Source of the DNA: Glaciimonas immobilis
Lineage (GTDB): Bacteria > Pseudomonadota > Gammaproteobacteria > Burkholderiales > Burkholderiaceae_D
Length of the DNA stretch: 64,000 bases
Reading direction: 5' to 3'
Assembly (NCBI RefSeq): GCF_011947285.1
Contig: NZ_JAAOZT010000006.1
Coordinates: 310,001 to 374,000, forward strand
Part shown: positions 38,006 through 56,342 of the stretch, one piece after another
Position numbering within the stretch: the first letter of the stretch is position 1
How the letters are laid out: every line of letters starts with the position of its first letter
Position numbers and translations under genes: made by a program
Notes under the pieces: generated by a model
Database searches by the model: none
Told to the model about the DNA's origin: nothing
The model's input: the letters and a program-made list of their open reading frames with translations, nothing else

Positions 38006-38054
38006 CCAAAAATATTTATGCGGAAATTACGTTTTGGAGCCGGTCGCTGCATGG

Positions 38055-38346: not shown

Positions 38347-38364
38347 CTTAAGTGGACGAGGACA

Positions 38365-39297: not shown

Positions 39298-40722
39298 ATG
39301 AATTTCTCTCAACTTTTATCTATTTTACGTGATCGCTACAAGCTCATTTTATTGACCTTGTTGATCACGGTGACTATCACGGTCGTAGTCAGTCTGCTCT
39401 TGCCTAAGACGTATAAGACCGCGACCACCCTGCTATTGAACTACAAAGGAACCGATCCAGTGTCAGGTCAGGTACTGCCGACCCAATTGGCGTCCGGCTA
39501 CATGGCCACCCAAGTAGACCTAATTACCAGCAGAACCGTAGCACTGAAAGTTGTCGACAATCTGGGATTGGCGAACAATCCCGCTATGTTACAGCGCTTC
39601 GAAAAAGCTAATTACGGGAATGGATCGATCCGCGAATATCTGGCAGATTCGTTATTAAAAGTGGTGGAGGTAACCCCAACCCGAGAAAGCAGTATGCTGG
39701 AAATCGTCGGCAAAGGGGGCGATCCTGCTTTCGTGGCTGCCGTTGCCAATGGCTTTGCTACCGCCTACCAGCAACTTAATCTCCAGATTAAAACCACCCC
39801 ATTGCAACAGGCATCACGATATTTTGCTGTTCAGGTCAAGAACTTGCGGACCGAACTGGAAGCCTCCCGCAATAAGCTTTCTCAATACCAGCAACAGCAT
39901 GGCTTGGTGAGTATCGATAATCATCTTGATGTTGAATCGAACCGACTCAATGAATTGTCGACACAATTAGTGCAGGCGCAGGCACAGGCAATTGAGGCCT
40001 CGTCGCGCGGCAACCAAGCCATGAGTGCCGGTGGCAGAGACTCCCCTGACGTGATCGGTAATTCGCTGATTCAAAACCTAAAGGCGGCCTTAGCGCAAGC
40101 ACAAGGAAAATTCGCGCTGTTATCACAAAATCTTGACCAAAATCATCCGCAATATCAGGCCGCCAAAGCGGAAGTGGACCGCCTTCGGTCAGAGCTTAAC
40201 GGTAACATCAGCGCGACAAATAATGGGACTGCAAACAACGGCCGAATTTTACGCCAACGGGAAGCGGAAGTGCGCGCCGCGTTGAGGTCGCAAACTAATA
40301 AAGTGTTGCAGCTCAATCGGACCCGCGACGAGATGGCGGTGCTGGTTAAGGATGTCGACAATGTACAGCGCGCCTATGACGCGGCAAATCTGCGGCTGAC
40401 CCAGACTGAACTTGAAGGTAAATCGAATCAATCCGATGTCACCGTACTTAATCCGGCGGTCGTCCCAGTACTTCCGGTGAGTCCTAATTTACCGCTAAAC
40501 ACCGTGTTAGCGGTTTTGATGGGAACCATGCTCGGGTTAGCACTGGCGATATTAGCGGAATTGTTCAATCGTCGTGTCAGAACTGCAGATGAGTTGTCCA
40601 ACTTGCTCAATGCACCAATGCTCGGAACCATAGTCGCAGAGAAACCAAGGCGCAGTTACGGTGACAACCACCTTGTATTTTTGCGCCGCTCACTTTTAGG
40701 CTGGAAAGGCGAATCGACATGA
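39298..40722 (+). CDS. epsF: Polysaccharide chain-length regulator (Wzz/GumC, EpsF)
   Basis: This 474-aa inner-membrane co-polymerase has a helix near residues 16-36, a long periplasmic coiled-coil region (about 170-370, for example VKNLRTELEASRNKLSQYQQ) and a second helix at about 400-425 preceded by a proline-rich stretch (NPAVVPVLPVSPNLPLN). It controls chain length and links the polymerase to the export channel. Its stop overlaps the start of the next gene as ATGA. Confidence 0.92.
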   Translation: MNFSQLLSILRDRYKLILLTLLITVTITVVVSLLLPKTYKTATTLLLNYKGTDPVSGQVLPTQLASGYMATQVDLITSRTVALKVVDNLGLANNPAMLQRFEKANYGNGSIREYLADSLLKVVEVTPTRESSMLEIVGKGGDPAFVAAVANGFATAYQQLNLQIKTTPLQQASRYFAVQVKNLRTELEASRNKLSQYQQQHGLVSIDNHLDVESNRLNELSTQLVQAQAQAIEASSRGNQAMSAGGRDSPDVIGNSLIQNLKAALAQAQGKFALLSQNLDQNHPQYQAAKAEVDRLRSELNGNISATNNGTANNGRILRQREAEVRAALRSQTNKVLQLNRTRDEMAVLVKDVDNVQRAYDAANLRLTQTELEGKSNQSDVTVLNPAVVPVLPVSPNLPLNTVLAVLMGTMLGLALAILAELFNRRVRTADELSNLLNAPMLGTIVAEKPRRSYGDNHLVFLRRSLLGWKGEST

Positions 40723-41594
40723 CCAATCCCGTAACTTCGATCATCGGCTCCGCAGCGCCGATTACAAAAGATGCAAATATTGGAAGCATGCTGGTAAAGC
40801 AAGGAAAAATTACCCATGAACAGGCTGAACGCGTACGCCATTTGCAAAATGAAGAGGGCCTGCGCTTCGGTGATGCGGCAATACGTCTCGGTCTGGTTTG
40901 CGCGTCCGACATTCAGCAGATTCGTGCACATCAACTTGATTACCCGTTTCATGCGGTGAATTCTGGGACCTATCCCCCTCCACTGACGGCTGCGTCTCAA
41001 CCATTTAGTGCAGAAGTCGAAATGTTGCGGAATCTACGCGACCAGCTGATGCAGCGATGGTTTGCCACTGGGCATAAGAAGCTGGCCATTGTCACCGTGA
41101 ACCCAGGAGACGGTACTAGTATGCTTGCAGCCAATCTCAGCGTGGTGTTCTCGCAATTAGGCAATCCCACGCTTCTGGTTGATGCCAATTTGCGGCATCC
41201 ACGTCAGCACAAAATATTTAGTCTCGATGGGAGACGCGGTTTAAGCGAGGCTCTGGCAGGGCACGCCGGACTTGACTTGCTGATCAGAGCTGAGACGTTT
41301 CTTGACCTTTCAATTTTGCCGGCGGGCTCAAGCGTGCCAAATCCGCAGCAACTTCTTAATCGATCGGCGTTTGGTGTATTGAATGAAAGATTATGCGATT
41401 GTTTTGACATTATTTTATATGACACGCCTGCATTTTTGAGCGCAACGGACTGTTTAACCATCGCATCACGTGCTGGCGGCGCGCTGCTGGTGGTGCGCAA
41501 AAATCACACTCGAGTTGCTGATCTTACCGTATTCAGCGGTCAGCTGCGGCGCAGCGGGACCGAGATTGTGGGATCGGTGATGGTAAGTTTTTGA
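40719..41594 (+). CDS. epsG: EpsG-like BY-kinase homologue with a degenerate P-loop
   Basis: This 291-aa cytoplasmic partner of the chain-length regulator has an N-terminal helical region (about 20-75) and a MinD-like ATPase fold from about 120. The Walker A segment reads NPGDGTSMLAANL (128-140): the invariant Lys/Arg is Thr133. Walker A' reads VDANLRHP instead of the usual DADLR-type sequence. Walker B is DIILYDTP. The C-terminus lacks a tyrosine cluster. Kinase activity is therefore doubtful and it may act as a structural partner. It is translationally coupled to epsF. Confidence 0.85.
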   Translation: MTNPVTSIIGSAAPITKDANIGSMLVKQGKITHEQAERVRHLQNEEGLRFGDAAIRLGLVCASDIQQIRAHQLDYPFHAVNSGTYPPPLTAASQPFSAEVEMLRNLRDQLMQRWFATGHKKLAIVTVNPGDGTSMLAANLSVVFSQLGNPTLLVDANLRHPRQHKIFSLDGRRGLSEALAGHAGLDLLIRAETFLDLSILPAGSSVPNPQQLLNRSAFGVLNERLCDCFDIILYDTPAFLSATDCLTIASRAGGALLVVRKNHTRVADLTVFSGQLRRSGTEIVGSVMVSF

Positions 41595-41731
41595 AGTGGT
41601 CCGGTTCAGTTCTGGCGTGGCCGTGATGAAGGTTTTAGTGCATGAAAAAATTTTAGCTGCTCCGGTTGTGCCGCCAACCGGTTGTGTTTCTCGTTTAACT
41701 ACTTGTTCAATGACGATAGGCTAGTAAGCGT

Positions 41732-43066
41732 ATGAACTCTTTTCTCGGAAACAGAAATCATTCTTCTCCACCGGCTGATTTGGAGTTGCCAGCAGGGCAA
41801 AGTCTGGTCTTTTGGATTTTGATCATTTCACTGACGTATCAGGCAACGCTATGTGCAATGCATACCAACGTTCATCCTATTTCAATGCTCGGCGTTGCGT
41901 TGACCGAAGCCGTGATTTACCTGGCTTGTCTGACGGTCTTGCTAAAGCGTATTCGGTTGGCATTTTTTGCGGTGGCCTTGCTGGTAGCAGCATATCTGTT
42001 TTTGATTGCAATTATCCGCAATCAGATTGATCCGAAGGGGTTTCGCGACGTAATGATTCCGATTCTTTTTTTTGGGTTGGGTCGCCAAATCGGTGACCTT
42101 AAATATGCTAATCGTGTGCTGAAAGTAATGGCGGTTCTGGTAATAGTTTTCGGTTTTTTTGAACTGTGGTTTCTGGAGGCATTCTCACGCATGTTTAATA
42201 TCTTTTCATATTACGTTAGTCAGGGTGGTTTGACGGCCGGGACCAATTGGGCGAAGGATAGCGTATTGGGGTTAAACGGCATTCGCCCTGAAGGAATAGG
42301 CAGGACTATTTTGCCGTCTTTGCTGGGAAATCACCGGGTTTCATCAATATTTTTAGAGCCAGTATCGCTAGGAAATTTCGCCGTCATCATCGCTGCATGG
42401 GGTTTGTCGAAACGACGTGATGAGGCTAAAGATATGTTTTTTTTCCTGGCAATGGCCGCGACGATGATTGCGTTGAGCGACTCGCGTTACGGCCTCATTA
42501 CTGTCGGAGCATTAGTTCTGATGCGCTGCTTGCCGTTCGACCGGACCAACGCCTGGATGATCTCTCTGCCATTACTTAGCATCATTATGCTGGTGGTGAT
42601 CGGGCTCTTTTTTAATACAAAATACGGTGACAACATTATTGGACGGTTATATGTAAGCGGACGGATGTTGCTAACATTTGATGTAAGAATGTTATTCGGC
42701 ATTGAGGGATTTAATATCGGTTTTGGAGACATGGGTTACTCGGCATTATTAACGCGACTGGGGGTGGTGCTGTGCCTCTTTTTGTGGATCACATTTTGGA
42801 TGCTCAAGATGGAGGATGAGAGAGGCAATAGATTTCGAGCCTACATCACACTCTATATGTCATTGATATTATGCGTGAGTGGTACCTCACTGTTTGCTTT
42901 GAAGACCGCTGGCATTTTATGGTTTCTGGTGGGCTGCTTCGTAGGGCGAAAAAACGAAGCTCCCAGGCAGTCTGAAACGTTAACATCGTCAGCAATATTT
43001 AGTCGTCGTAATAGCTATCCCTTAGCCTTCGCCGAAGCACGTAAGGAGTCGAAAAATGTCTATTAG
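41732..43066 (+). CDS. Putative polysaccharide polymerase (Wzy/GumE-like)
   Basis: This 444-aa protein has about ten to twelve hydrophobic helices and a larger loop around residues 150-205, the usual layout of Wzy-type polymerases and O-antigen ligases. Conservation is too low to name motifs. No other polymerase candidate exists in the cluster, which has a flippase and a chain-length regulator, so Wzy is the best assignment. It overlaps the start of the following glycosyltransferase gene by 11 bases. Confidence 0.7.
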   Translation: MNSFLGNRNHSSPPADLELPAGQSLVFWILIISLTYQATLCAMHTNVHPISMLGVALTEAVIYLACLTVLLKRIRLAFFAVALLVAAYLFLIAIIRNQIDPKGFRDVMIPILFFGLGRQIGDLKYANRVLKVMAVLVIVFGFFELWFLEAFSRMFNIFSYYVSQGGLTAGTNWAKDSVLGLNGIRPEGIGRTILPSLLGNHRVSSIFLEPVSLGNFAVIIAAWGLSKRRDEAKDMFFFLAMAATMIALSDSRYGLITVGALVLMRCLPFDRTNAWMISLPLLSIIMLVVIGLFFNTKYGDNIIGRLYVSGRMLLTFDVRMLFGIEGFNIGFGDMGYSALLTRLGVVLCLFLWITFWMLKMEDERGNRFRAYITLYMSLILCVSGTSLFALKTAGILWFLVGCFVGRKNEAPRQSETLTSSAIFSRRNSYPLAFAEARKESKNVY

Positions 43067-44198
43067 TGTCGTGCACATCGTGCGTCAATATTCGCCTTCC
43101 GTTGGTGGCATGGAAGACGTGGTGCAGAATATCTCCAGACAACAGCGTGACCACCACGACCAGCGCCCAAAGATTATTACGCTCAATCGACTATTCAAAA
43201 ATTCCACCGAATTGCTGCCTCGGGAGGCAGTAGTAAATGGGGTGGGCGTGGTCCGGTTACCGTTTCATGGTACCAGCAGATACCCGTTATGTCCTCAGGT
43301 CTTGCAGCATGTCGCGGATGCTGATGTGGTTCACGTCCACGGGATCGATTTCTTTTTCGACTATATGGCGTTCACCAAACTACTTCACCGCCGGCCTCTG
43401 GTTGCCTCTACTCACGGGGGATTCTTTCATACGTCATTTGCATCAACACTTAAAAAAATCTACTTTAACTCAATCACCCGAGCGTCCTCGATGATCTACG
43501 ACAAGATCGTTGCAACCAGCGAGAACGATGGCGAAATTTTTAAAAAGATTGTTAAGCCATCCGCGTTAACGGTAATTGAAAATGGCGTCAACGTCGAAAA
43601 ATACAGCAACCAGGCGTCGGCTACGCTGTCCCAAACCTTAATCTATTTCGGGCGGTGGTCGGTTAATAAAGGTTTGCTTGAAACGTTGGCGCTGTTCAAA
43701 GAGCTCGTTGCACGGCAGGCAGGCTGGAAGCTGATTATAGCTGGGCGAGAGTACGACCACACAGCAGCGGAGTTTCATCGCTGGGTGGCGCAGCATAACT
43801 TGGCCGGCTCAGTTCAGATAGTGCCGAATCCTTCTGATTTAAAACTGGCGGAATTGATAGGACAGTCGAGTTACTTTATTTGTACGTCGCGGCACGAAGG
43901 TTTTGGTATCGCCCCGGTCGAAGCGATGAGCGCTGGTTTGATACCGCTATTAAGCGATATTCCGCCGTTTCGCCATCTCGTTTCGCAGTCAAAAATTGGA
44001 CTGCTTGTTAATACGAAAAACATTAGAGATAGTGTCGAAGCACTGGTGAAAATGCATGCAGCTGGCCGTTCCGATTATGCTTTACGACGCAACCAGGCGC
44101 AGCAGTTCGCAGAGCGCTACAACTGGCGACAGATTGCCGATAAATATGCGGATATTTATACGCGCCTCGCGGGTCGGAAATTTCACTATTCACGATGA
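43056..44198 (+). CDS. gumH: GT4 mannosyltransferase (GumH/AceC-like)
   Basis: This 380-aa cytoplasmic transferase has a GT-B fold. HIVRQYSPSVGGMEDVVQNI opens the N-terminal domain, HVHGIDFFFDYMAF and STHGGFFHTSFAS follow, and the nucleotide-binding half has YFGRWSVNKGL and the EX7E motif EGFGIAPVEAMSAG. These blocks agree closely, by memory, with xanthan GumH, which adds alpha-1,3-mannose from GDP-mannose to lipid-linked cellobiose. AAGGAG precedes the ATG, which overlaps the end of the polymerase gene. Confidence 0.88.
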   Translation: MSISVVHIVRQYSPSVGGMEDVVQNISRQQRDHHDQRPKIITLNRLFKNSTELLPREAVVNGVGVVRLPFHGTSRYPLCPQVLQHVADADVVHVHGIDFFFDYMAFTKLLHRRPLVASTHGGFFHTSFASTLKKIYFNSITRASSMIYDKIVATSENDGEIFKKIVKPSALTVIENGVNVEKYSNQASATLSQTLIYFGRWSVNKGLLETLALFKELVARQAGWKLIIAGREYDHTAAEFHRWVAQHNLAGSVQIVPNPSDLKLAELIGQSSYFICTSRHEGFGIAPVEAMSAGLIPLLSDIPPFRHLVSQSKIGLLVNTKNIRDSVEALVKMHAAGRSDYALRRNQAQQFAERYNWRQIADKYADIYTRLAGRKFHYSR

Positions 44199-44367
44199 AG
44201 TGGAAAGGCGGCAACTAAGACATGCCACAAATCTTTATTCTAAAAAGCGCCATGTAAGGGTATAGGGCGTAATGCTAATGAGGAGGAAAAAGGCCGGCAG
44301 CGCATGCCGCCGTGGGACAGTCTCGTTCTAAATTTCTTTTTGCGAAGTTAACTTGGAAAATAATATT

Positions 44368-45849
44368 ATGGAGCAGGACAATAATCACGGCAACGTACTA
44401 TCTGGATCCACCTGGTCCATCTTGGATAATCTCGCCCAACAGGTTCTTTCGTTTATTATTTTTGCCATATTGGCGCGTTTTCTGGCACCCGATGCATTCG
44501 GTTTGTTGACAGTCGCCCACCTCTTTATTTTGTTCTCCCGATTAGTCATATTTGATGCCATTGCGATGCCTGTGGTTCGTTCCCTTCTCCCTGACGACAA
44601 GCTTTATTCCTGGGTGTTTACTTACTGCACAGTTACCGGTTTGATATTGGCTGGCTTAATGTTTGGTTCTGCGGGCACGGTTTCAACATTGTTTCGGGCG
44701 CCGGAACTCAAGCCAGTTTTGCAAGGTATGAGTATCTCAGTTTTTTTCTTCGGTTTGGTACGCGCCTACGAGGCGCGTCTGGTGCGCAACATGATGTTCC
44801 GTCAGTTAGCGATCCGATCAATTCTTTCCGTCACGCTCGGCGGTATCGTAGGTATCGCACTGGCGGTCAACGGCATGGGTGGCATGTCATTGGTAGTGCA
44901 ACAGGTAATTGCTTCAGGTCTGGCGCTGTTGCTGGTGGTGCTGCAAAGCCGATGGGTACCGCGTCTCGTTTTTGATGGCGGATTGATCCGTTTATTTTGG
45001 GCCGATTCGCGGCAGGTATCGATTGCAGGGCTTTTGGACTTTGTCAATGCTAATGGCGATTCCTTATTGGTTAGCGTCTTCTTGGGACCCTATGCGACCG
45101 GCCTTTACAATCTTGCAAAGCGGATGACCTCGTCAGTGTATCTGGTTATCTCAAGTTCGATGCACAAGGTAGCGCTACCCATATTTTCAGAAGCACAGTC
45201 GAATGAAGGCACGTTGCAACTTGGCTATTTAAAAATTCTCGGGATCACGCTAATTTGTGCGGCCCCTTTGCTTTGTTTTCAGGCCGAATTAGCAAAACCC
45301 CTGATAGTCGTTGTATTTGGTCCGAAGTGGTTGCCTGCCGCGCCCACAGTCAGCGCATTAGCCATTCTGTGTTTGGTCGCATCAGTTGTTGATTTAAATG
45401 AATATCTCTTATTTGCAATCGGAAGAAATTGTTTTCCGGTGGTGCTCGGTATCGCAAAATTAGCCCTTGCGGCCGGACTCTCTGCCATTTTCTATAAATT
45501 TGGCCTGCTTGGAATGAGTTTGTCGTTTTGCGCCGCCCACGTGCTGTTGTTTCCGATTTCGCAAATAGCGGTTAATCGCGCACTCGGCCTCAAAACACAT
45601 CAAACGTTATACGCATTTGCTCCGCCGTTGGTAGGGAGCATCATTTTGTATCTTGGCTTAAGCATTTATTTACTGCTTATATCAGATCGCTTAAACCATC
45701 CCACGTTGATAGTGGGGGCCGCTTTTCTTGCGAGTTTATTGTATCCGTTGATGGTTGCGATTACTGGATGGCGGATTAGAGCGGTCAATGGATCGTTACC
45801 TGAAATGTGGTTATCACCTATCCGATTATCCCGATTCTTCATGCGTTGA
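44368..45849 (+). CDS. Oligosaccharide flippase (Wzx/GumJ-type, MOP superfamily)
   Basis: This 493-aa protein with about twelve to fourteen membrane helices would flip the lipid-linked repeat unit across the inner membrane. The start SGSTWSILDNLAQQVLSFII and FAILARFLAPDAFGLLTVA is typical of the Polysacc_synt family. I use the ATG at 44368; a TTG five codons earlier is the alternative. It follows gumH after about 170 bases without other features. Confidence 0.88.
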   Translation: MEQDNNHGNVLSGSTWSILDNLAQQVLSFIIFAILARFLAPDAFGLLTVAHLFILFSRLVIFDAIAMPVVRSLLPDDKLYSWVFTYCTVTGLILAGLMFGSAGTVSTLFRAPELKPVLQGMSISVFFFGLVRAYEARLVRNMMFRQLAIRSILSVTLGGIVGIALAVNGMGGMSLVVQQVIASGLALLLVVLQSRWVPRLVFDGGLIRLFWADSRQVSIAGLLDFVNANGDSLLVSVFLGPYATGLYNLAKRMTSSVYLVISSSMHKVALPIFSEAQSNEGTLQLGYLKILGITLICAAPLLCFQAELAKPLIVVVFGPKWLPAAPTVSALAILCLVASVVDLNEYLLFAIGRNCFPVVLGIAKLALAAGLSAIFYKFGLLGMSLSFCAAHVLLFPISQIAVNRALGLKTHQTLYAFAPPLVGSIILYLGLSIYLLLISDRLNHPTLIVGAAFLASLLYPLMVAITGWRIRAVNGSLPEMWLSPIRLSRFFMR

Positions 45850-45949
45850 GAGTTGGAATTTTTATTCTTTTTTTAAGGGCAAAAGAGGTAGATGAAATTT
45901 CTCACCTTTTTTTTCGGTCAAAAAATTTTGCGGTTTAGAAAGTTGAGCC

Positions 45950-46687
45950 ATGAAACTAGAAAAAATGATTCCGATCGCTGGTTATCCGGTGTTGAAAACT
46001 AATTCGCCTGTATTGGCAGCAGTGCTGAGGCGAACCGTCAGAGTAAATAAAAAAATGACGCTTTTTTTTGCCAATACGAATTTTATCGTTCAGTGCCGCT
46101 ATCTTCTGGACCGGATGAGATCCGATTCTGTGATCATCGTGAACGATGGTGTTGGAATGGATATAGCAGCATTTTTATTCGCCCAGGAAAAGTTTGATGA
46201 AAATTTAAATGGCACCGACTTTATACCGTATTTTTTTTCCGGATCTAATCGATCACTGCGGGTGTTTATGATCGGAAGCAAACCTGAAGTTCTCGCCAAA
46301 GCCGCCCAACACGCGCGTGAGAACCTGGGACAAACAGTGGTGGGTACCTGCGATGGATATGCCGGGTTAAATAGAAATTTTGAGGATTTGATTGAGACCA
46401 TTAACGCTGCGCAGGCCGAGGTGGTACTTGTGGCACTAGGCAATCCAGTGCAGGAGGAGTGGATACTCGCCAGCCGCGATCTGCTCAATGCAAACCTGGT
46501 AATTGGGGTTGGCGCTTTGTTTGATTTCTGGAGCGGCGAAAAACTGCGTGCGCCTGCTTTTTTGCAACGTGTGCGGCTTGAATGGTTTTACCGGCTTTGT
46601 TTGGAGCCACGCCGTTTAGTGCGCCGTTACACCATTGACATTATGCGATTTATGTTGTTGTGCAGCAGGTATCGAAAAGATATTTGA
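45950..46687 (+). CDS. gumM: WecG/TagA/CpsF-family glycosyltransferase (GumM-like, GT26)
   Basis: This 245-aa transferase has the family blocks VNDGVGMDIAAFL (about residues 62-74, with the conserved aspartates), VFMIGSKPEVLAKAA, ALGNPVQEEWI and GVGALFDFWSGEKLRAPAF near 185-203. In xanthan the GT26 enzyme GumM adds the second, beta-1,4-linked glucose to give lipid-linked cellobiose. That role is assigned here by family and by the presence of GumD-, GumH- and GumK-like partners. Confidence 0.85.
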   Translation: MKLEKMIPIAGYPVLKTNSPVLAAVLRRTVRVNKKMTLFFANTNFIVQCRYLLDRMRSDSVIIVNDGVGMDIAAFLFAQEKFDENLNGTDFIPYFFSGSNRSLRVFMIGSKPEVLAKAAQHARENLGQTVVGTCDGYAGLNRNFEDLIETINAAQAEVVLVALGNPVQEEWILASRDLLNANLVIGVGALFDFWSGEKLRAPAFLQRVRLEWFYRLCLEPRRLVRRYTIDIMRFMLLCSRYRKDI

Positions 46688-46763
46688 GCGGACAAAAGGG
46701 CAATCGATATTTAGCTAGTGAAGCCTTCATGCCGTTTTCGGTCACCTTCAATTAGGAGCAAAA

Positions 46764-47987
46764 ATGAAAGCAATGATATTAGCAGCAGGCAAAGGCACTC
46801 GGGTTCGCCCACTTACCTACGATCTTCCAAAGCCGATGATCCCCATTTTGGGCAAGCCGGTGATGGCGTATCTGGTCGAGTTTCTGGCCAGTTACGGGGT
46901 ACACGACATTATGGTGAATGTCAGCTATTTGCATCAGAAAATTGAAGAGTATTTTGGTGACGGGACGCAGTTTGGTGTTCAGATCGGCTATTCCTTTGAA
47001 GGCTATACCGATGAGAGTGGACAAGTAATTCCGGTGCCGTTGGGATCGGCGGGCGGCATCAAAAAGATCCAGGAATTTGCAAACTTCTTCGACGATACGA
47101 CGATCGTGATTTGCGGGGACGCTTTAATCGATCTGGACCTTACTTCCGCATTGTTGGAGCATAAGCAAAAAGGTGCAATGGTCAGCGTTATCACCAAGGA
47201 AGTGCCTTGGGATAAAGTCGATAACTACGGCGTCGTAGTGACCGACCCCCAAGGACGGATCAAGTCGTTCCAGGAAAAGCCGACGCAGGAAGATGCGCTT
47301 TCGAATTTCGCTAGTACAGGCATTTATATCTTCGAACCCGCAGCCATCGAGTTGATACCGGTGGACAGGCCGTTCGACATTGGTTCAGATTTGTTTCCCC
47401 TTTTAGTGGAAAAAGGATTGCCGTTTTACGCCCAGCAGCGGTTTTTCAACTGGATCGATATAGGCACGGTCACCGATTATTGGAGCGTGCTACAAAGTGT
47501 TTTGTCAGGCGAAGTCGCGCAGTTGGAAGTGCCTGGAACGCAAGTCGTTGACGGCGTCTGGGTTGGCCTCAACACCCGCATCGACTGGCATGGTGCAACC
47601 ATTCAAGGACCTGTTTATATCGGGGCGGGTTGCCTGATTGAGTCGGGCTGCACCATCATCGGACCGACCTGGATAGGGCATGGCAGCCATATATGTTCTG
47701 GTGCAGAGGTGGTGCGAAGTGTTTTGTTTGAATATACCCGAATCTTACCTGATGCCTATCTGGAAGAAATGGTTGTGAGAAAGGAATTTAGCGTAAATCG
47801 TGCCGGGGAAATGTCGCGCTCTGCCGCGGCGACAAAGCATGCATGGTGTGATGCACGGCATCAGTTACAAGAAAAAAAGTTTCTTCCTGATGAAAAGGTC
47901 CTCCTGGAGAAGGGCGGGAATATAACCACTACAGAGAGTACGTTGTCCGCAGTCAGTCTGATCGACAATCGTGTGAGCAATGTATGA
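46764..47987 (+). CDS. NDP-sugar pyrophosphorylase with hexapeptide repeats (mannose-1-P guanylyltransferase-like)
   Basis: This 407-aa cytoplasmic enzyme has the nucleotidyltransferase signature MILAAGKGTRVRPLTYDLPKP at the N-terminus and a left-handed beta-helix from about 255 (GVWVGLNTR, GPVYIGAGCLIESGCTIIGP). The layout matches GMPPB-type GDP-mannose or similar UDP/dTDP-sugar synthases. A 55-residue low-complexity C-terminal tail is unusual. AGGAG precedes the ATG. Its stop overlaps the manC start (ATGA), so the two are coupled. Exact substrate is uncertain. Confidence 0.82.
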   Translation: MKAMILAAGKGTRVRPLTYDLPKPMIPILGKPVMAYLVEFLASYGVHDIMVNVSYLHQKIEEYFGDGTQFGVQIGYSFEGYTDESGQVIPVPLGSAGGIKKIQEFANFFDDTTIVICGDALIDLDLTSALLEHKQKGAMVSVITKEVPWDKVDNYGVVVTDPQGRIKSFQEKPTQEDALSNFASTGIYIFEPAAIELIPVDRPFDIGSDLFPLLVEKGLPFYAQQRFFNWIDIGTVTDYWSVLQSVLSGEVAQLEVPGTQVVDGVWVGLNTRIDWHGATIQGPVYIGAGCLIESGCTIIGPTWIGHGSHICSGAEVVRSVLFEYTRILPDAYLEEMVVRKEFSVNRAGEMSRSAAATKHAWCDARHQLQEKKFLPDEKVLLEKGGNITTTESTLSAVSLIDNRVSNV

Positions 47988-49402
47988 AAATTTATCCCGT
48001 GATTCTGGCTGGCGGTGCCGGCACCCGCTTGTGGCCGTTGTCGCGTGAAGCGTTGCCCAAGCAGTTGTTGCCGTTGTGCTCCAACCATACGATGCTGCAG
48101 GAGACTTTGCTGCGTGTGTCAGAATGGCCCGAATTGATGCCACCGTTGGTGGCCTGCGGCAACGAGCATCGGTTTTTGGTTGCGGAGCAATTACGCGCCA
48201 TTGACATTAAACCTTGCGGAATATTGCTTGAGCCCGAGGGGAGAAATACCGCACCGTCGGTCGCAGCAGCGGCGCATTTTTTGTTAAAGCGAGACCCGCA
48301 AGCCATCATGCTGGTACTGCCTGCCGACCATGTAATTGCCGATACGGCTGCTTTCCATGCTGCAGTGAAATGCGCATTACAACCAGTTCTGCAAGGCGCC
48401 CTAGCGACTTTCGGGATTGTGCCAACCGGACCTGAGACCGGCTATGGCTATATTCGTCGGGGAAGGTCGAGTGACATTGATACCGGCTGTTACACGGTGG
48501 AGCGCTTTATTGAAAAGCCGGATCGTACCACCGCTGAGAAGTTTGTTGCCGATCCCGCATACAGCTGGAACAGTGGCATGTTTTTATTTCAGGCTACCCG
48601 TTACCTCGCCGAATTACGCGTCTTTCGACCAGCGATTGCTGATAGCTGTGAGCAAGCGTTCCATGGCGCATACCACGATCTGGATTTTTGCCGCCTCGAT
48701 GAAGTCTCTTTTGCAGCCTGTCCATCGGAGTCAATCGACTATGCTGTCATGGAACATACGCAACATGCCGTGGTTGTGCCCGCAAACATTGGCTGGAATG
48801 ACGTTGGCTCGTGGACCGCACTGTGGTCCGTTCTGGAACCCGATACAGACGGCAACGTGCTGCGTGGAGATGTCTATACCGACACGGTCCGTAACGCGAT
48901 GGTACGCGCAGAAAGCCGTTTTGTTGCGCTCATTGGCGTCAAAGATCTGGTCATAGTAGAAACCAAGGACGCAGTACTGGTGGCACACAAAGATCACGTA
49001 CAGGACGTCAAGCAGATCGTGGAAGACCTTAAGAAACAAGGTCGCAGTGAATATATGCGCCATGCCAGCGTCTACCGGCCTTGGGGCAGCTACGAGGGCA
49101 TCGATATGGGAGACCGCTATCAGGTTAAGCGGATCACGGTCAACCCCGGCGGAAAACTTTCGCTACAAATGCATCATCATCGTGCCGAACATTGGGTGGT
49201 AGTGAGCGGTACCGCACGGATTATCTGCGGCGATGAGGAAAAACTTCTGACCGAAAATGAATCCACCTATATCCCGATTGGGGTAAAGCACAGGCTGGAA
49301 AATCCTGGAAAAATGCCATTACATTTGATCGAAGTCCAGTCTGGCGGCTATCTCGGCGAGGATGACATTGTGCGGTTTGAAGATATATACAAACGCCTTT
49401 GA
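47984..49402 (+). CDS. manC: Mannose-1-phosphate guanylyltransferase / mannose-6-phosphate isomerase
   Basis: It makes GDP-mannose, the donor for the GumH-like enzyme, and probably mannose 6-phosphate from fructose 6-phosphate. The 472-aa type II enzyme has the pyrophosphorylase signature LAGGAGTRLWPLSREALPKQ at 8-27, FIEKPD near 170, and a C-terminal cupin isomerase domain (RPWGSYEGID, QMHHHRAEHWVVVSGTA, PIGVKHRLENPG). It therefore links central hexose phosphates (Pgi, see the glucose locus) to exopolysaccharide. Confidence 0.94.
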   Translation: MKIYPVILAGGAGTRLWPLSREALPKQLLPLCSNHTMLQETLLRVSEWPELMPPLVACGNEHRFLVAEQLRAIDIKPCGILLEPEGRNTAPSVAAAAHFLLKRDPQAIMLVLPADHVIADTAAFHAAVKCALQPVLQGALATFGIVPTGPETGYGYIRRGRSSDIDTGCYTVERFIEKPDRTTAEKFVADPAYSWNSGMFLFQATRYLAELRVFRPAIADSCEQAFHGAYHDLDFCRLDEVSFAACPSESIDYAVMEHTQHAVVVPANIGWNDVGSWTALWSVLEPDTDGNVLRGDVYTDTVRNAMVRAESRFVALIGVKDLVIVETKDAVLVAHKDHVQDVKQIVEDLKKQGRSEYMRHASVYRPWGSYEGIDMGDRYQVKRITVNPGGKLSLQMHHHRAEHWVVVSGTARIICGDEEKLLTENESTYIPIGVKHRLENPGKMPLHLIEVQSGGYLGEDDIVRFEDIYKRL

Positions 49403-49538
49403 TGAAGTCTGAAAGTGATCGTTGATGTTGCCCGGCAGCATCAGACATTTAAACGTAAAAACGCAGGTGATTATTAAATTTTTTAACCGTAAAGAAGCAA
49501 ATGGTGAAGCGCATTGTTGACCTTACAGGAGATAAATT

Positions 49539-49583
49539 ATGTCATTAAATTCGAAACTTTCATTTAAAGATCTTTTTTTTTAA
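49539..49583 (+). pseudogene. 5' end of the VirK/YbjX-family gene, out of frame after a T9 run
   Basis: A strong AGGAG lies 7 bases before an ATG that opens a 14-codon frame (MSLNSKLSFKDLFF) ending at TAA just after nine T (49573-49581). Shifting by one base at the T run leads without a stop through ITRNIVKRRS and TVQTWRRG into the downstream VirK/YbjX frame. One extra T would restore a single gene from 49539 to 50509. It may be phase variation, programmed slippage, decay or a sequencing error. Confidence 0.6.
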
Positions 49584-49654
49584 CCACTTCAGTTATCACA
49601 AGAAATATCGTAAAAAGGAGATCTATTTTAACCGTACAAACCTGGCGAAGAGGT

Positions 49655-50509
49655 TTGTTCTTATTACTTAATATTAATCGGCACCTTAAACTTATAAATA
49701 CGCTTAGTCATCCTCAGACGGCCAAGCTGATTCTCGATATTCCGGAACTGTCTTACAAATACTTACGAGATTACATTTCCTTTGATATCTCAATGAAAAA
49801 TAGTCTTGCGATATTGACGGGGCATTATTTGTATTTGCAAAAACATTTTAAAATCAATTTTTTGGAAGATATTTATAATTTCCCGGTACCCTTATGGTCG
49901 CAACAAATCAACGATACTTTATGTGAAATAGTGATTGGCTTTCCACACACGATAGATTATGAAGGTGATTTATGCTTGATCTTTAAAATAAATGGAGTGT
50001 GTATCTATCGGATTATTTTTGTGATTTCTAATGGGACGCCTTTTTGCCTCAAAGATGAAAACGTTATATTTATTTCTAGCGTGCAGGGGATGCATGATTT
50101 TGACAATGTGAAACTGGCCACCAAAGTTTGCCATGATATTCAACCCGCTCAATTATTGATGGCGGCGATGAGCGGCGTGACGACCGCGCTTGGTTTTAAG
50201 ACGATGGTCGGTATTGGCAATAAAAATCAAATCTCACAGGGCAAGCGATTTTACTTTTCATATAACAATTTTTTCGAAAAATATGGCGTCCTTGTTTCAG
50301 GAACAAATTACTATGAAATCCCCGTTCCGTTCGCAGAAAAACCGCTGGCCATGATTGAAATGAAGCATCGGAAACGGACTCAAAAAAAACGTGCTTTTAA
50401 AAATAACATTAGTGAGAACGTGGCACTTGCAATGGAACGTTTTTTTGTAAAAGAAGCTGAACCAGCTGGGGTAATTGACGAGAAATCGCTACCCGTTTTA
50501 CAGAATTGA
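49655..50509 (+). CDS. VirK/YbjX family (DUF535) protein, main open frame
   Basis: This frame of 284 codons matches DUF535: FISSVQGMHDFDNVKLATK near residues 140-158, DIQPAQLLMAAM near 160-171 and ALGFKTMVGIGNKNQI. Family members (VirK, YbjX) are linked to outer-membrane integrity and resistance to antimicrobial peptides; molecular function is unknown. The TTG at 49655 has a poorly spaced ribosome-binding site and cuts into conserved-looking sequence. The natural start is probably the ATG at 49539, separated from this frame by the T9 run. An AAGGAG followed by ATT at 49625 is another possible start. The gene lies between manC and gumK and its base composition is more AT-rich than theirs. Confidence 0.75.
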   Translation: MFLLLNINRHLKLINTLSHPQTAKLILDIPELSYKYLRDYISFDISMKNSLAILTGHYLYLQKHFKINFLEDIYNFPVPLWSQQINDTLCEIVIGFPHTIDYEGDLCLIFKINGVCIYRIIFVISNGTPFCLKDENVIFISSVQGMHDFDNVKLATKVCHDIQPAQLLMAAMSGVTTALGFKTMVGIGNKNQISQGKRFYFSYNNFFEKYGVLVSGTNYYEIPVPFAEKPLAMIEMKHRKRTQKKRAFKNNISENVALAMERFFVKEAEPAGVIDEKSLPVLQN

Positions 50510-50528
50510 TTCAATAGGAGCCAATAGA

Positions 50529-51650
50529 ATGAGATCGTTAGTGATTACAGCGCATGATTACAGATCGCGGCGGAAGGTGAATATGCATTTCATCGCAGCC
50601 GAATTGGCGAAGTATGGTCCGACCAATTTTTTTTCGTGTCAATACAGTTTTCTTTCACAATTGAAATCGGACCCACGGAATTCGTTGAATGGTCTCGCCA
50701 ATAAAGTCGAGAGGCACGAAGGCGTTAATTGTTATCTTTGGAAGACCATTATCCATCCCATCAATATGCGTAAGAATATTTTTTACCCGATCGAAAAGAT
50801 GCTATTCGAACGTTACATTGCCCGTCCTAGTCCGGTCTTGGTGGAGTGGATAAAAAGTGTAGAAGTCGTGGTTTTTGAAAGCGGTATTGCACCGATTTTC
50901 TTTGACCTGGTGCAACAGCTCAATCCGCAAGCAAGGACGATTTATCTCGCCTCCGACGATCTTGATACCATCAATGTCGCATCCTATGTAAAGACTACTT
51001 TTGCTCGGGTCGGGCCGAAAATGGATGCGCTTTGCCTCACGTCGCGCTTGATGGCGGAAGGATTGGCAAGTAGGACGAACTGTTATCTGGTGCCGCACGG
51101 TTTTGATTATTCGGTCGAAGATCATGCTGATCCATCGCCGTATACCTCCGGTCTGCATGCGGTATCCGTTGGCTCGATGCTATTCGATCCCGGTTTTTTT
51201 GTGGTCGCATCGGCTATGTTCCCGGATGTCACATTTCATATCATCGGGTCAGGCAAAGGCGTCGAACCCGGCTATGGAAAAAATGTTGTGGTGCATGATG
51301 AAATGCCGCATCAGAGCACACTTCCTTACATTAAACATGCCACGATCGGTATTGCGCCGTACCGGTCACAGGATGTGCCGCGTTATTTATCGGACACGTC
51401 GATGAAGCTTATGCAATACGAATTTTTTACATTGCCAGCGGTATGCCCGGAGGCAATTGTGGGAGACTATGCATCGCGCTTTGGGTACGCTCCGGGTAAC
51501 GCCGACTCAATCGTCAGCGCCATGCGCGCAGCACTGGTTGCGCCGCGAATACCACCTAAAAGAACGCCGCTGCGTTGGTCGGAAGTAGTAGAGCGGTTGC
51601 TTCAACCAGACACATTCAATGACACGAAATTGTCCGACCTGGCTATGTAA
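50529..51650 (+). CDS. gumK: Glucuronosyltransferase (GumK-like, GT70)
   Basis: This 373-aa membrane-associated transferase would add beta-1,2-glucuronic acid from UDP-glucuronate to the mannose of the lipid-linked trisaccharide. VITAHDYRSRRKVNMHFIAA, VVVFESGIAPIFF, INVASYVKTTF, VSVGSMLFDPGFFVVAS, HIIGSGKGVEPGYGKNVVV and YIKHATIGIAPYRSQDVP follow the xanthan GumK sequence closely, by memory, including the catalytic aspartate region near the start. AGGAG precedes the ATG at 50529; the frame opens earlier, inside the VirK end. It is the last plus-strand gene of the cluster. Confidence 0.9.
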   Translation: MRSLVITAHDYRSRRKVNMHFIAAELAKYGPTNFFSCQYSFLSQLKSDPRNSLNGLANKVERHEGVNCYLWKTIIHPINMRKNIFYPIEKMLFERYIARPSPVLVEWIKSVEVVVFESGIAPIFFDLVQQLNPQARTIYLASDDLDTINVASYVKTTFARVGPKMDALCLTSRLMAEGLASRTNCYLVPHGFDYSVEDHADPSPYTSGLHAVSVGSMLFDPGFFVVASAMFPDVTFHIIGSGKGVEPGYGKNVVVHDEMPHQSTLPYIKHATIGIAPYRSQDVPRYLSDTSMKLMQYEFFTLPAVCPEAIVGDYASRFGYAPGNADSIVSAMRAALVAPRIPPKRTPLRWSEVVERLLQPDTFNDTKLSDLAM

Positions 51651-51868: not shown

Positions 51869-52105
51869 TCATGGTGTGTCGAGATAGTTCCTATTTATCC
51901 ATGTACCAAATTCACGCAGCATGATATTGGAAAGCAATGGGAAAGTTACGCCCTTTTGCAGAACACCTTCACTCAAAGCCTGAAATAAATCACGGTTAAT
52001 ACAACCTGCTTTGACAAAATTCCGGGCAAATTGATTAACCGTTTGATAGCGGCTCAATCCAATAACCAACTGCGACTTAATCTGCGTTTGAGCTGGTGCC
52101 ACCAT
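51869..52105 (-). CDS. Possible small protein overlapping the end of the adenylation/carrier/thioesterase gene
   Basis: A 78-codon frame starts with ATG at 52105, inside the last 52 bases of the large gene, and runs past it. Its translation (for example QTVNQFARNFVKAGCINRDL and VTFPLLSNIMLREFGTWINR) looks protein-like, helical and without low complexity. The ribosome-binding site is weak. I do not recognise a family. It may be translationally coupled to the large gene or be a chance frame. Confidence 0.35.
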   Translation of the reverse strand: MVAPAQTQIKSQLVIGLSRYQTVNQFARNFVKAGCINRDLFQALSEGVLQKGVTFPLLSNIMLREFGTWINRNYLDTP

Positions 52106-55100
52106 CTCAGGTTTACGGACTCGCTAAAACTATACTTATTCGTTTCAATAAAACATAAATCTCCATTGAGCACGCGATCCAACGCTGCAGCCACGACCTG
52201 AACGTTCGGCTCGCTTAGCATATTATTATGGTCTCCCGGTACCTCTACAATCGCTAACCCACCCTGCGCAAGGTGGCGCAACCGGATTATGGGATTTCCC
52301 CACTCTTCTTGCCGTATTGCTGCGCGCAGGTAGACGACAATGCTTGCGTCATAAGGAGGCGTCTTATAAGCCTTCATGGCCGCCCACATTCCTTCGCGCA
52401 CGCGTCTTAGCGCCGGTGGCAACCCCATGGTAAAGGCATCGGTGCGTTGCGCCATGAGTCCGAAAGGCCGTGGCATCCGATCCATCAAATAAGAGAGAAT
52501 TTGAGATGCGGGTACCGTGTTCAGGGAATGATAGTGGCGTTTGATTGATTTGCCCAAATGTCGCAGGCGCGCACTCCGTGGCAGCCAATGTTTGTGCACA
52601 TAAGTATCAAGCAAACAGAGCAGTTCAATTTGCTCTCCACAGCGTTGCAGCTGTTGCGCAATCTCTAAGGCGATCAGGCCGCCGAACGAGTAACCGATAA
52701 GTGTGTAGGGGCCACTCGGTTGAACAATACGTATTTGTTCGATGTAGCTGGCCGCCATATCCTCCGCGCGAAGTTGCACTGGCTGTTCGCCATCAAGACC
52801 TTGCGCCAGCAGACCGTGCACCGGACGCTGAGTTTGAAGCGTACTAATCAATGTCCAGCATTCCATGATAGAGCCGCTCACGCTAGGTGCGAGAAACAGG
52901 GGGGTGCCACTACCAGAACGCATGAGCACTGGCACCGGCACAGTCAACGTCTGCGCTCTGTGGAAGATTGCCGCGCCTAATCCAGCGACGGTCGGTGCGT
53001 TGAGAAATGTTGGCAGCGCTATGACGTGACCGGTAGAGCGATTTATTTCTGCGAGCAATCGAACCGCTAATAACGAATGACCGCCCAGATCGAAGAAATT
53101 TTCTTCGCGTCCGATGGGCGCTATCGTCAAAACATTTTCCCACTGCGCGATCAAATGGCGTTCGAGCTGTTCGAGGCTGGTGCCGACTGGAGGCAATTTT
53201 CCCCCTGTCAAATGCAACGACGGATGATTTTGGATTGCCTTGAGACATTCCGGATTTCGCAATGCCGCTGCATTCACGACGGCCGAACCGTTGACGGCGT
53301 CACGTACAGCCTTATCTGACAGTTTGCCACTATGCGTGACCGGCAACGCATCAACTGCAATGATCTGGTCCGGAACGTGCGCCGACGAGGCACGCTGAGC
53401 GAGATCGCGGCGTATTTGAGTGGCCAGTGCACTGGTCAGTTTAACCCCAGATTGTAAGACTATCAGTAGCACCGTGCGCGCTTCAGGCCTGTCGGCATAG
53501 CCAGCCGATATTGTTGAACGTTGCTGTTGAACGACAATTGCCTCGCGGACAAAAGCAAGGTCATTCAAGATGCGGTAGATTTCCCCCGGGCCCACGTTCA
53601 CGCCGCGCACATTCAGCAGACCGTCAGAGCGGCCGTGCATTCGCGCTGCGCCTTCCTCAGAAAACTCGATAAAATCTCCGTGAGTCCAAACCCCTTGATT
53701 TTCGGCGAAATAGGCCGCATGAAACTGTGTGCCGTCGGCGTCGCCAAAAAATCCCAGCGGACGGGAGGGGAATGGGTTAGCACATATCAACTGACCTACC
53801 CCATCGCAGCGTTTACCCTCCTGCCAAGACTGCACATCGAGAGCAAGACTCTTGCATTGCGCCATACCTGTCACTACTGGCAGATCAGGGTTTCCTAGTA
53901 CAAAGCAGCCTAAAATGTCGGTCCCCCCAGAAATCGACTGCAACGGCAGCGGCTTGACGTGATCATGCACCCAGTCGAACTGGGCGTCATACAGTACCGA
54001 TCCAGTTGACAAAATTGCGCGTAATGCGCCGATCTCGAATTGCAGTCCTGGCGCAAGCCCTGCATATTGGCTCATCTTCAGATAAGCGGGGCTGGTCCCA
54101 AAGACGGTAACGTTCTCATCTGCGACGAGCTGCCATAAGGTATTGGCGGAGGAGATCGGTCCATCAAAGGTAAGGATTTCAACACCGGAAGCCAAAGCGG
54201 ATAACTGCCAATTCCACATCATCCAGGCACAACTGGTGTGGAAGAATAGTTTTTCACCTGGCCGCAAGTCACTGTGTAATCGATGCTCTTTGAGATGTTC
54301 GAGCAAAGTACCCCCGGCACCATGCACGATGCATTTTGGTTTGCCAGTGGTGCCCGACGAGAACATGATAAAAAGCGGTTGATTAAATGAAAAGCGCTGC
54401 CACTCGCAACGGCTAGCATCACCCATCTCGCACAACGATTCCAGCGAGTAGATCGCTTGAGCGATTGTGTTCGGTAAAATACCTTCGTCAAGTCGGACTA
54501 TGCTGTGCAATGACGGCATCGCGTTAGCCAGGGCGGTAACATTATCCGCCAGCGACACGCCGGTATCGCAGGCCCTGTTTGTAACGTGCGCAAATAATAC
54601 TCGCGGGTTTAGCGGCAGGAAGCGATCCAGGATCGTTTCGAAGCCCATTTCGGTTGCCGCTGTCGATAGCGTCGCACCAAGGGCAGTAATTGCCAGAGCC
54701 GCTACGACCGCTTGTTCATCATTGCGCATCAGGCCGACAACATGGTCCCCTTCTTGCACACCCAGTGCCGATAACGCTTGCGCCAGACGCGCGACCCTGT
54801 TGCGCAGTTCACCTCGGGTCAGCTGCACCCGGCGTCCATCCCAATGACATGCCGTCAATGCCGGAGCATCGGCTCCAGCCACTGTCAGATTGAGCAAGTT
54901 ATCTGCGTAATTCAGCCTGACCTGAGGAAAGAATTCAGCGTGCTCGCAGTCTTTTCCCACACATACCGGTGTCATACTGCCTGACCAGGCCAATCCTTTC
55001 GACCATCGCAAGAAGCACTCCCAGAAGGTTGCATACTCGCGTACAGAATAATCATGGAGGACCTGATAATTAGGAAAGATTTGACCGGTGTTTGCTTCAA

Positions 55101-55221
55101 GAAAATGCGTGAAGTCAGTCATCTGCGACGAAAGGCCGAGTGTCTGCCTAGCGTGATACGTGGTTGAGTACGGGCTGGTATCTAGGCCGTATTTCTCAAC
55201 TAAGAAGGCTGAACTTTCCAT
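52054..55221 (-). CDS. Adenylation-carrier-thioesterase (A-T-TE) enzyme with acetoacetyl-CoA-synthetase-like A domain
   Basis: This 1055-aa NRPS-like protein has three parts. The adenylating domain (about 1-650) resembles acetoacetyl-CoA synthetase, with an ACAS_N-like start, MFSSGTTGKPK at 286-296, the diagnostic CAWMMWNWQLSALASG near 331-346, GRSDGLLNVRGVNVGPGEIY at 530-549 and the A10 lysine K633 (THSGK). A carrier domain (about 685-755) has FDLGGHSLL with the phosphopantetheine serine S716. A type I thioesterase domain (about 770-1030) has GYSFGG with S845, a plausible D872 and a histidine in PGDHNNML. It would load a short keto or hydroxy acid on its carrier and release, cyclise or condense it. 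GGAG precedes the ATG. A PPTase gene lies upstream on the same strand. Confidence 0.85.
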   Translation of the reverse strand: MESSAFLVEKYGLDTSPYSTTYHARQTLGLSSQMTDFTHFLEANTGQIFPNYQVLHDYSVREYATFWECFLRWSKGLAWSGSMTPVCVGKDCEHAEFFPQVRLNYADNLLNLTVAGADAPALTACHWDGRRVQLTRGELRNRVARLAQALSALGVQEGDHVVGLMRNDEQAVVAALAITALGATLSTAATEMGFETILDRFLPLNPRVLFAHVTNRACDTGVSLADNVTALANAMPSLHSIVRLDEGILPNTIAQAIYSLESLCEMGDASRCEWQRFSFNQPLFIMFSSGTTGKPKCIVHGAGGTLLEHLKEHRLHSDLRPGEKLFFHTSCAWMMWNWQLSALASGVEILTFDGPISSANTLWQLVADENVTVFGTSPAYLKMSQYAGLAPGLQFEIGALRAILSTGSVLYDAQFDWVHDHVKPLPLQSISGGTDILGCFVLGNPDLPVVTGMAQCKSLALDVQSWQEGKRCDGVGQLICANPFPSRPLGFFGDADGTQFHAAYFAENQGVWTHGDFIEFSEEGAARMHGRSDGLLNVRGVNVGPGEIYRILNDLAFVREAIVVQQQRSTISAGYADRPEARTVLLIVLQSGVKLTSALATQIRRDLAQRASSAHVPDQIIAVDALPVTHSGKLSDKAVRDAVNGSAVVNAAALRNPECLKAIQNHPSLHLTGGKLPPVGTSLEQLERHLIAQWENVLTIAPIGREENFFDLGGHSLLAVRLLAEINRSTGHVIALPTFLNAPTVAGLGAAIFHRAQTLTVPVPVLMRSGSGTPLFLAPSVSGSIMECWTLISTLQTQRPVHGLLAQGLDGEQPVQLRAEDMAASYIEQIRIVQPSGPYTLIGYSFGGLIALEIAQQLQRCGEQIELLCLLDTYVHKHWLPRSARLRHLGKSIKRHYHSLNTVPASQILSYLMDRMPRPFGLMAQRTDAFTMGLPPALRRVREGMWAAMKAYKTPPYDASIVVYLRAAIRQEEWGNPIIRLRHLAQGGLAIVEVPGDHNNMLSEPNVQVVAAALDRVLNGDLCFIETNKYSFSESVNLRWWHQLKRRLSRSWLLD

Positions 55222-55577
55222 TTTGGCTCCAGGTATCGGGTGACGAATCTATATACTCGAACGAAAATTACTTCATTGTTGCTATAAATCAATATTTTCC
55301 TGCAGCGCGTAGCGATTCGCTCTTTACTCAAAGCCCGGGGACGGCAGTTCTCGTGCTCAGGATGTGGTTTAACGCAGACTACTGGTGGATCCCCTGACCG
55401 GTAAATCCCCATAGGGGATAGCAGCTTCTTACGTCGTAACCAGTGATATGGCTCAACGCAATATTGATAATATATTGACAATATTACGCTGAAGTTATTA
55501 AAAAAGAAATATTTATATTAATGTGATATTTTCCTTGTCGCCAGTTTTCTTCCCTTCAACTCAAGTCCGCTCGCCCA
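55222..55577. promoter_or_regulatory. Upstream region of the A-T-TE gene with an inverted repeat
   Basis: At 55460-55485 AATATTG and CAATATT flank a 12-base centre that repeats ATATTGA, giving an operator-like inverted repeat about 240 bases before the A-T-TE start. A smaller ATCCCC-ATA-GGGGAT hairpin is at 55405-55419. The region is AT-rich around the repeat and carries no convincing gene. Confidence 0.45.
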
Positions 55578-56342
55578 TCATTCTTTCAATGGCCTCGTCG
55601 CCGAAGCGAGCAGGATACCGGCATCGTGCCAGCAAGGCGTGAGGGTTGAACCAGCGTCGCGATGCATGTTTTGCACAGCGAGCGCAAGCACATATTCTCC
55701 ATAATCCGGCATCACGATAAATTTCCATCCGTGCGCGAACTGGTCGGGCAAATCCCCTTCGGGTGGGGCAAGTAGCGTGGGTTGCAATTGAGCGTCCAGA
55801 TTAAACGTTACCTTACGTGGATCGGTGGTAAGTCCAACTCCGATAGCCTTTAAGTAAGCTTCCTTGAGCGTCCAAAGAGAGAGAAGTCGTTTGACCCGTT
55901 GCTTGTGGGTGGGAAGCGATCTTATTTCTTTCGCTTCCAAAAGACTACACACCATCGGTATTAAAACTTCTGGGACAACCTCAGGCGCAAATCGTTCCAC
56001 GTCGACCCCCACTGCACCTCGTGCCAGAAGAGCGACAACCACAAGATCGCCGCTGTGAGCGATGCTGAAGGTCAGTGTTGTGAGATTAGGATCAAGTTTT
56101 GGTTTGCCGTTGCGCGTCAGCACGATGTTAACTTCCTGCGCCGGGCATCTAAGCTGGGAGGAGATAGCAAGCCGGGTCAAGGCGCGACCAACCATAAAAC
56201 GCTTTTGATCCGCGACCTGACGGAAACACAATCGGCGCGCTTTTTCAGCAGGGGTCAACAGTGCAAGCAGATGACGCGCATTTTCATCAATATGCTGGAG
56301 ATTGGCAATCCATATCACGGGAAATGTTGGAAGGCAGGGCAT
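55578..56342 (-). CDS. 4'-Phosphopantetheinyl transferase (Sfp-type)
   Basis: It attaches the phosphopantetheine arm from CoA to carrier proteins. The 254-aa length is typical of Sfp/Gsp enzymes. GVDVERF at 112-118 holds the metal ligands D114 and E116, and LWTLKEAYLKAIGVGL at 156-171 holds E161 and the conserved lysines. FSIAHSGDL (92-100) is the substrate-binding segment. It is upstream of the A-T-TE gene on the same strand, separated by 356 bases, so its likely partner is S716 of that enzyme. Confidence 0.92.
   Translation of the reverse strand: MPCLPTFPVIWIANLQHIDENARHLLALLTPAEKARRLCFRQVADQKRFMVGRALTRLAISSQLRCPAQEVNIVLTRNGKPKLDPNLTTLTFSIAHSGDLVVVALLARGAVGVDVERFAPEVVPEVLIPMVCSLLEAKEIRSLPTHKQRVKRLLSLWTLKEAYLKAIGVGLTTDPRKVTFNLDAQLQPTLLAPPEGDLPDQFAHGWKFIVMPDYGEYVLALAVQNMHRDAGSTLTPCWHDAGILLASATRPLKE

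Follow-up and report, generated by a model that had tools for sequence, protein, structure and literature searches.

Background

The domain order adenylation (A), thiolation or carrier (T) and thioesterase (TE) within one enzyme is known from RalA, of ralfuranone, and from the basidiomycete quinone synthetases. Both activate aromatic alpha-keto acids, and the quinone synthetases dimerise these acids with their A, T and TE domains (PMC10316625). Carrier and TE domains also occur together in termination modules of nonribosomal peptide synthetases (NRPSs) such as EntF and AB3403. An acetoacetyl-carrier has been proposed as the product of a polyketide synthase (PKS), and not of an acetoacetyl-CoA synthetase (AacS) domain (PMC10127204). 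Here we describe a gene in a 64,000-nucleotide stretch of Glaciimonas immobilis (contig NZ_JAAOZT010000006.1, positions 310,001 to 374,000; hereafter the window) that encodes an A-T-TE enzyme with an A domain of AacS type and that is accompanied by a phosphopantetheinyl transferase (PPTase) gene. Judged from its sequence, the enzyme probably makes its own small product of acetoacetyl type.

The window protein resembles AacS (TIGR01217; structure 4wd1) over the whole A domain, including the WMMWN block, the catalytic Lys633 and Arg531. Unlike AacS, it is fused to a carrier and a TE, lacks the basic residues K/R220, R608 and R614, and is paired with the PPTase. It shares the A-T-TE order with RalA and the quinone synthetases, whereas their substrates are aromatic and its A domain is AacS-type. 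Carrier and TE domains are likewise shared with the EntF and AB3403 modules; however, Pfam found no condensation domain in the window protein, and its A domain is not of the amino-acid type. An earlier note on this DNA had known of no described system with such an architecture. We also met no description of an AacS-carrier-TE enzyme in the titles and abstracts of the literature searched, a coverage outside which most subscription papers fall.

Results

The A-T-TE gene (52054..55221, minus strand, 1055 aa) has an intact reading frame in the window. Its Pfam and NCBIfam domains are, in order and all on the minus strand, an AacS-type adenylation domain (residues 31-664; 53230..55131), a PP-binding carrier (residues 690-752; 52966..53154; PF00550, 43 bits against a cut-off of 20.8) and a type I thioesterase (residues 774-1003; 52213..52902; PF00975, 78.4 bits against 26.4), which agrees with the A-T-TE architecture claimed in the earlier note. 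The A domain scored 554.7 bits against the NCBIfam model for acetoacetate--CoA ligase, TIGR01217, above the cut-off of 520.9; it remained narrowly below the cut-off of PRK03584 (634.5 bits against 639) and far below that of TIGR01733, the model used here for amino-acid NRPS adenylation domains (79.2 against 317.4). Its best match among solved structures was 4wd1, an AacS structure (E 5.4e-112). The catalytic sites that we checked are intact, namely Lys633 of the A domain, Ser716 of the carrier (53074-53076, minus strand) and Ser845, Asp872 and His998 of the TE, the last three being invariant across 27 aligned TE domains (the window, locus L078 and 25 of 56 TE-type relatives). Compared with the orthologues in the same genus, the ratio of nonsynonymous to synonymous substitution rates (dN/dS) was 0.15 for the A-T-TE gene and 0.23 for the PPTase gene, which indicates that both are under purifying selection. 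We saw no solo AacS in the window's assembly, where the other five matches were 23-26% identical, or 29% across a short stretch.

We then placed the A domain in a tree of 46 A domains (IQ-TREE), in which the fused enzymes were represented by the window, L063, L078 and 18 of the 62 fused relatives described below. These 21 rows (20 fusions and L063, which is cut by a contig end) clustered with support of 100/100, nested in a 40-row AacS clade of solo and fused enzymes (99/99, stem 2.45). The AacS clade stood apart from the Acs- and PrpE-like enzymes encoded in the window's genome, from three other acyl-CoA ligases and from one NRPS A domain; the outgroups are long-branched and IQ-TREE warned about how they join, which leaves their order uncertain. 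The AacS type suggested for the A domain in the earlier note is borne out by this placement, and a position among NRPS A domains, which would have spoken against it, was not seen in this tree with its one NRPS A domain. The placement also argues against kinship with the A domains of RalA and the quinone synthetases, none of which were in the tree. On this phylogeny, the fusion of AacS to a carrier probably arose once.

The PPTase gene (55578..56342, minus strand, 254 aa) lies 356 bp upstream of the A-T-TE gene on the same strand and encodes a 4'-phosphopantetheinyl transferase with PF01648 (ACPS) and PF22624 (AASDHPPT_N). Its score of 55.7 bits against PF01648 (cut-off 25) assigns it, by the ACPS domain, to the Sfp/HetI-type PPTases, and with 80.2 bits against the 370 required by the HetI equivalog it is not HetI itself. 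In a profile search, a PPTase adjoined the A-T-TE gene in 16 of the 62 fused loci and in none of the 79 control regions, with the limits that the profile was built from the window PPTase on the same hit and control loci that were later counted and that related loci are not independent. Within the genus, a close orthologue (68% identity) was found only in the other genome that bears the A-T-TE gene, and there it stands beside it; the PPTase matches of the three same-genus genomes without the A-T-TE gene were only 27-33% identical. Both the locus counts and this co-occurrence support the pairing noticed earlier from the sequence.

In order to compare residues, we aligned 60 fused rows with 19 rows of solo AacS. 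The fused rows are the window, L078 and 58 of the 62 fused relatives, L043, L053, L054 and L055 being left out. The WMMWNW block (residues 333-338; 54208..54225, minus strand) is complete in 60/60 fused rows, each of its six residues being kept; among the solo rows W333, W336 and N337 are present in 19/19, M335 in 18, and M334 and W338 in 13. The window protein has no acidic residues in 328-346, the region where amino-acid A domains carry the Asp that binds the alpha-amino group (position 235). Fifteen sites, P378 and R487 among them, are strongly conserved yet different between the fused and the solo rows.

In Salmonella Acs, Arg191 and Arg584 touch the CoA phosphates, and the equivalent Arg residues in a relative matter for CoA binding and turnover (PMC10455477). 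A basic residue (K/R) at position 220 was present in 19/19 solo rows compared to 6/60 fused rows, R/K at 608 in 19/19 compared to 0/60, and R at 614 in 17/19 compared to 0/60; the window protein has T220, A608 and A614 and thus none of these solo-AacS basic residues. Position 608 presumably corresponds to Acs Arg584, by counting back from the catalytic Lys, and we take 220 to lie in the loop of Arg191 by our own mapping; 614 has no comparable support. Position 542 had been considered as the equivalent of the CoA-binding Arg584 and was rejected by the same counting, as 608 aligns instead. Residue N542 itself (53596-53598) occupies the place of a conserved G-x-R Arg present in 19/19 solo AacS rows, and it is Asn in 45 of the 50 Burkholderiaceae-type fused rows.

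A search for further AacS-carrier-TE fusions, proposed in the earlier note, was performed by scanning GTDB genomes and gave 67 relatives. Since 62 of these are AacS-carrier fusions, the window gene is not a one-off. By matched range, 56 relatives extend through the TE, 6 have another C-terminus, 4 are solo AacS enzymes and the last 1 is truncated where its contig ends. A Pfam search of 18 proteins, namely the window protein and 17 relatives, found PP-binding in 15/18 and Thioesterase in 10/18. In the window's own family the gene occurs in 2 of 392 genomes, both of the window's genus, and 3 of the 5 genomes of the genus are without it; this patchy presence suggests horizontal gain. The family of a Paraburkholderia relative gave matches in 62 of 398 genomes at E 1e-145, some of them partial or frame-broken (e.g. 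G508, G668, G720, G780, G798 and G804), and several genomes had two copies. At a strict threshold, one alphaproteobacterial order (1/297 genomes) and the phylum of the delta metagenome-assembled genome (1/195) each gave the starting genome only. Seven plasmid records carry a fused relative, and the gene is annotated in two of these, both times as acetoacetate--CoA ligase.

Where two diverged full-length copies share a genome (e.g. G551, G658 and G664), they are about 59% and 55-56% identical to the window protein. The presence of two copies suggests two substrates or roles.

Six of the 62 fusions, from Methylobacterium and Enterovirga (L057, L058, L059, L062, L064 and L070), keep A and T and have a GNAT-like domain instead of the TE in the C-terminal ~290 aa of the A-T gene. 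The five GNAT-form rows in the tree make up a subclade within the fused clade (100/98), and an alignment of seven GNAT-like domains has clear common blocks. This Methylobacteriaceae C-terminal domain matches 50 plasmid records; the best 15 of the 50 are about 25-33% identical, with four annotated as GNAT family N-acetyltransferase. Three of the C-termini gave no match in NCBIfam, and a PDB profile search with the domain gave one match, at chance level. We inspected the annotated regions of 4 of the 50 records. The relatives in Paludibaculum, Shinella and Aureimonas are each near several glycosyltransferase or polysaccharide genes, and in Sulfitobacter the sole polysaccharide-type neighbour is an annotated polysaccharide deacetylase. 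On plasmid pAU20a of Aureimonas sp. AU20 (L212:6759-10457), an acyl carrier protein, the GNAT relative and an exosortase-A-associated AMP-forming ligase stand in a polysaccharide cluster. This set resembles the Methylobacteriaceae fusion in that ligase, carrier and GNAT relative occur together, and is unlike it in that the genes are separate and the ligase is annotated as exosortase-A-associated; it is possibly a split version of the fusion.

Apart from the PPTase, no conserved partner was found, either by eye or from the Pfam domains of neighbours, and the orphan status claimed in the earlier note therefore holds in both surveys. The survey by eye covered 69 entries with the gene called, including the window twice and two solo AacS, the gene being uncalled in 4 more; the Pfam survey drew on 48 of 53 hit regions, with 204 dereplicated neighbours and the 25 commonest families of each list considered, the other 5 regions having dropped out because the A-T gene was uncalled. 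Polysaccharide genes were found near 12/55 fused loci compared to 3/79 controls (one-sided Fisher p=0.0014) and, counted by synteny cluster, in 6/30 compared to 3/79 (p=0.013). These counts use the fused loci with at least 14 kb of sequence (55 of 62) and 79 of 80 controls, one being excluded for overlap. Of the controls, the first 40 come from contigs on which the gene occurs as well, and loci of the same cluster are not independent; 8 of the 40 further controls are on contigs known for glycosyltransferase matches, which biases the comparison against a polysaccharide link. As probes we used a glycosyltransferase profile built on 20 hits, together with 14 single proteins, of which nine came from the window, one (a GalE) from the same-genus locus L078 and four from the plasmids that carry GNAT relatives; several probes were named by eye. 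A first count of 13/56 compared to 1/39 was discarded because the window, the main source of probes, had been counted, as had two loci chosen for what lies next to them.

In the window, an exopolysaccharide cluster (36160..51650, plus strand) stops some 400 bp short of the A-T-TE gene, and we report it as context and not as a shown partner. Pfam matches in 43056-51650 include a glycosyltransferase, a flippase-type Polysacc_synt, WecG/TagA/CpsF, a ManC-type protein, GumK_N and DUF535, and 36160-43066 was assigned to the cluster by eye from the starts of open reading frames. The DUF535 gene is located inside the cluster at 49655-50509. A PADLOC search gave no match. Elsewhere in the genome, a 3-hydroxybutyrate dehydrogenase (320.3 bits, cut-off 307.05) could supply acetoacetate. 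At locus L017 (Paraburkholderia piptadeniae), an NRPS open reading frame of 1598 aa at 11588-16384, with its own C-terminal TE by eye, is convergent to the A-T-TE gene.

Discussion

The computed evidence consists of the identity of the domains, the descent of the A domain from AacS, the intact catalytic sites, the pairing with a PPTase, the loss of basic residues and the exchange of TE for GNAT. From it we infer the substrate, the loading of a carrier instead of CoA and release by acyl transfer. Our preferred reading, which we hold tentatively and at a little less than even confidence, is that of a carrier-dependent enzyme that would charge its own carrier with acetoacetate or a close relative and then release this acyl group by transfer. 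The AacS-type A domain would use ATP to adenylate acetoacetate, or else a short beta-keto or beta-hydroxy acid much like it, and the acyl group would then be moved to the phosphopantetheine of the enzyme's own carrier, armed by the neighbouring PPTase, and not to CoA. The TE would then release the acyl group, in the likeliest case by passing it to an external nucleophile (a hydroxyl or amine, either on a small molecule or on the sugar of a surface glycan), to give an acetoacetylated product; in Methylobacteriaceae the GNAT-like acyltransferase would perform this last step. Loading of the carrier is what the chemistry of the family leads us to expect. That basic residues of solo AacS are largely lost near the expected CoA site is likewise what one would expect if a carrier replaces CoA. 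Release by acyl transfer is suggested by the GNAT swap, by the GNAT relatives near polysaccharide genes and by the modest polysaccharide enrichment.

Several observations weigh against this reading. The argument from CoA is not clean, since Arg was gained in the 50 Burkholderiaceae-type rows (at 605 in 45, at 609 in 43 and at 610 in 50), and Arg is also missing at 608 from the Acs- and PrpE-like enzymes of the genome itself, where Ala and Asp occupy this site. The fifteen clade-specific sites leave room for another acid, which may be a relative of acetoacetate. By Pfam the GNAT assignment is weak: 1/5 fused domains scored above the cut-off (20.7), the other four falling below it or giving no score, as did 2/4 standalone relatives (Paludibaculum 22.1 and Sulfitobacter 33.9 bits), those of Shinella and Aureimonas having no Pfam GNAT match, and Pfam did not confirm the annotation of the Sulfitobacter polysaccharide deacetylase. 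The commonest neighbour Pfam families occurred in only 4/102 and 2/102 dereplicated neighbours (25 families listed per list), and 24/30 synteny clusters had no polysaccharide gene by the probe set used. With most clusters lacking such a gene and no neighbour family being widespread, a glycan acceptor is a hint of a tendency and not a rule. The TE could also hydrolyse or dimerise instead.

Dimerisation is the idea of the earlier note. In a homodimerising synthetase of this kind, the TE would couple two acetoacetyl units through Claisen and lactonising condensation into a pyrone or furanone; two such units could give dehydroacetic acid. The layout is the same as in RalA and the quinone synthetases, and with no conserved partner enzyme one enzyme may suffice. 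The quinone synthetases offer a precedent for keto-acid dimerisation, although the acids they use are aromatic alpha-keto acids (PMC10316625) and the A domain here belongs to the AacS family. The best solved-structure matches of the TE are NRPS TEs (4zxh, 7crn and EntF), which speak neither for nor against dimerisation. Replacement of the TE by a GNAT-like domain in the Methylobacteriaceae clade, however, fits acyl transfer to another molecule better, and we consider a dimerising enzyme unlikely, if still worth serious attention.

It is also conceivable that the protein remains an AacS that mainly makes acetoacetyl-CoA, with the carrier and TE as accessories for storage, proofreading or regulation. 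The passed TIGR01217 cut-off, the retained AacS signature block, the absence of a visible solo AacS from the genome and the Arg residues that Burkholderiaceae-type rows have acquired at 605, 609 and 610 are consistent with such a role, but K/R220, R608 and R614 are lost, the carrier Ser and the TE triad are intact under purifying selection and the gene is paired with a PPTase, which together make it quite improbable in our view. We find it more doubtful again that the enzyme is a free-standing loading module supplying acetoacetyl-carrier to an NRPS or PKS elsewhere. The convergent NRPS of P. piptadeniae, about 0.6 kb off, would suit a loading module, yet the 25 commonest neighbour families of each list include none of NRPS or PKS type, a KR-domain match there being accompanied by short-chain dehydrogenases, and a TE at the C-terminus usually marks the end of a chain.

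Returning to the carrier-dependent enzyme with release by acyl transfer, a wider proposal, speculative and rather unlikely as a whole, is that the fusions form a new class of carrier-dependent acetoacetyl transferases. An AacS would have given up CoA once for a fused carrier, and different lineages would then have added a TE or a GNAT for transferring the acetoacetyl group to a glycan or another acceptor.

Conclusions

A probable biosynthetic enzyme, with a match in 62 of 398 genomes from the family of a Paraburkholderia relative, bears the name of a primary-metabolism enzyme in both plasmid records that annotate it. If the transferase-class proposal is true, a route for decoration with short acids would be hidden under the name acetoacetate--CoA ligase. 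If the preferred reading is right, the enzyme would show a CoA ligase turning into a carrier-loading enzyme and would provide a single gene with a directly testable product; it may also tie polyhydroxybutyrate turnover, by way of acetoacetate, to a product that is secreted or displayed at the surface. Since the same loading module is followed by a TE in some lineages and by a GNAT-like domain in others, two mechanisms of release can be compared as they occur in nature.

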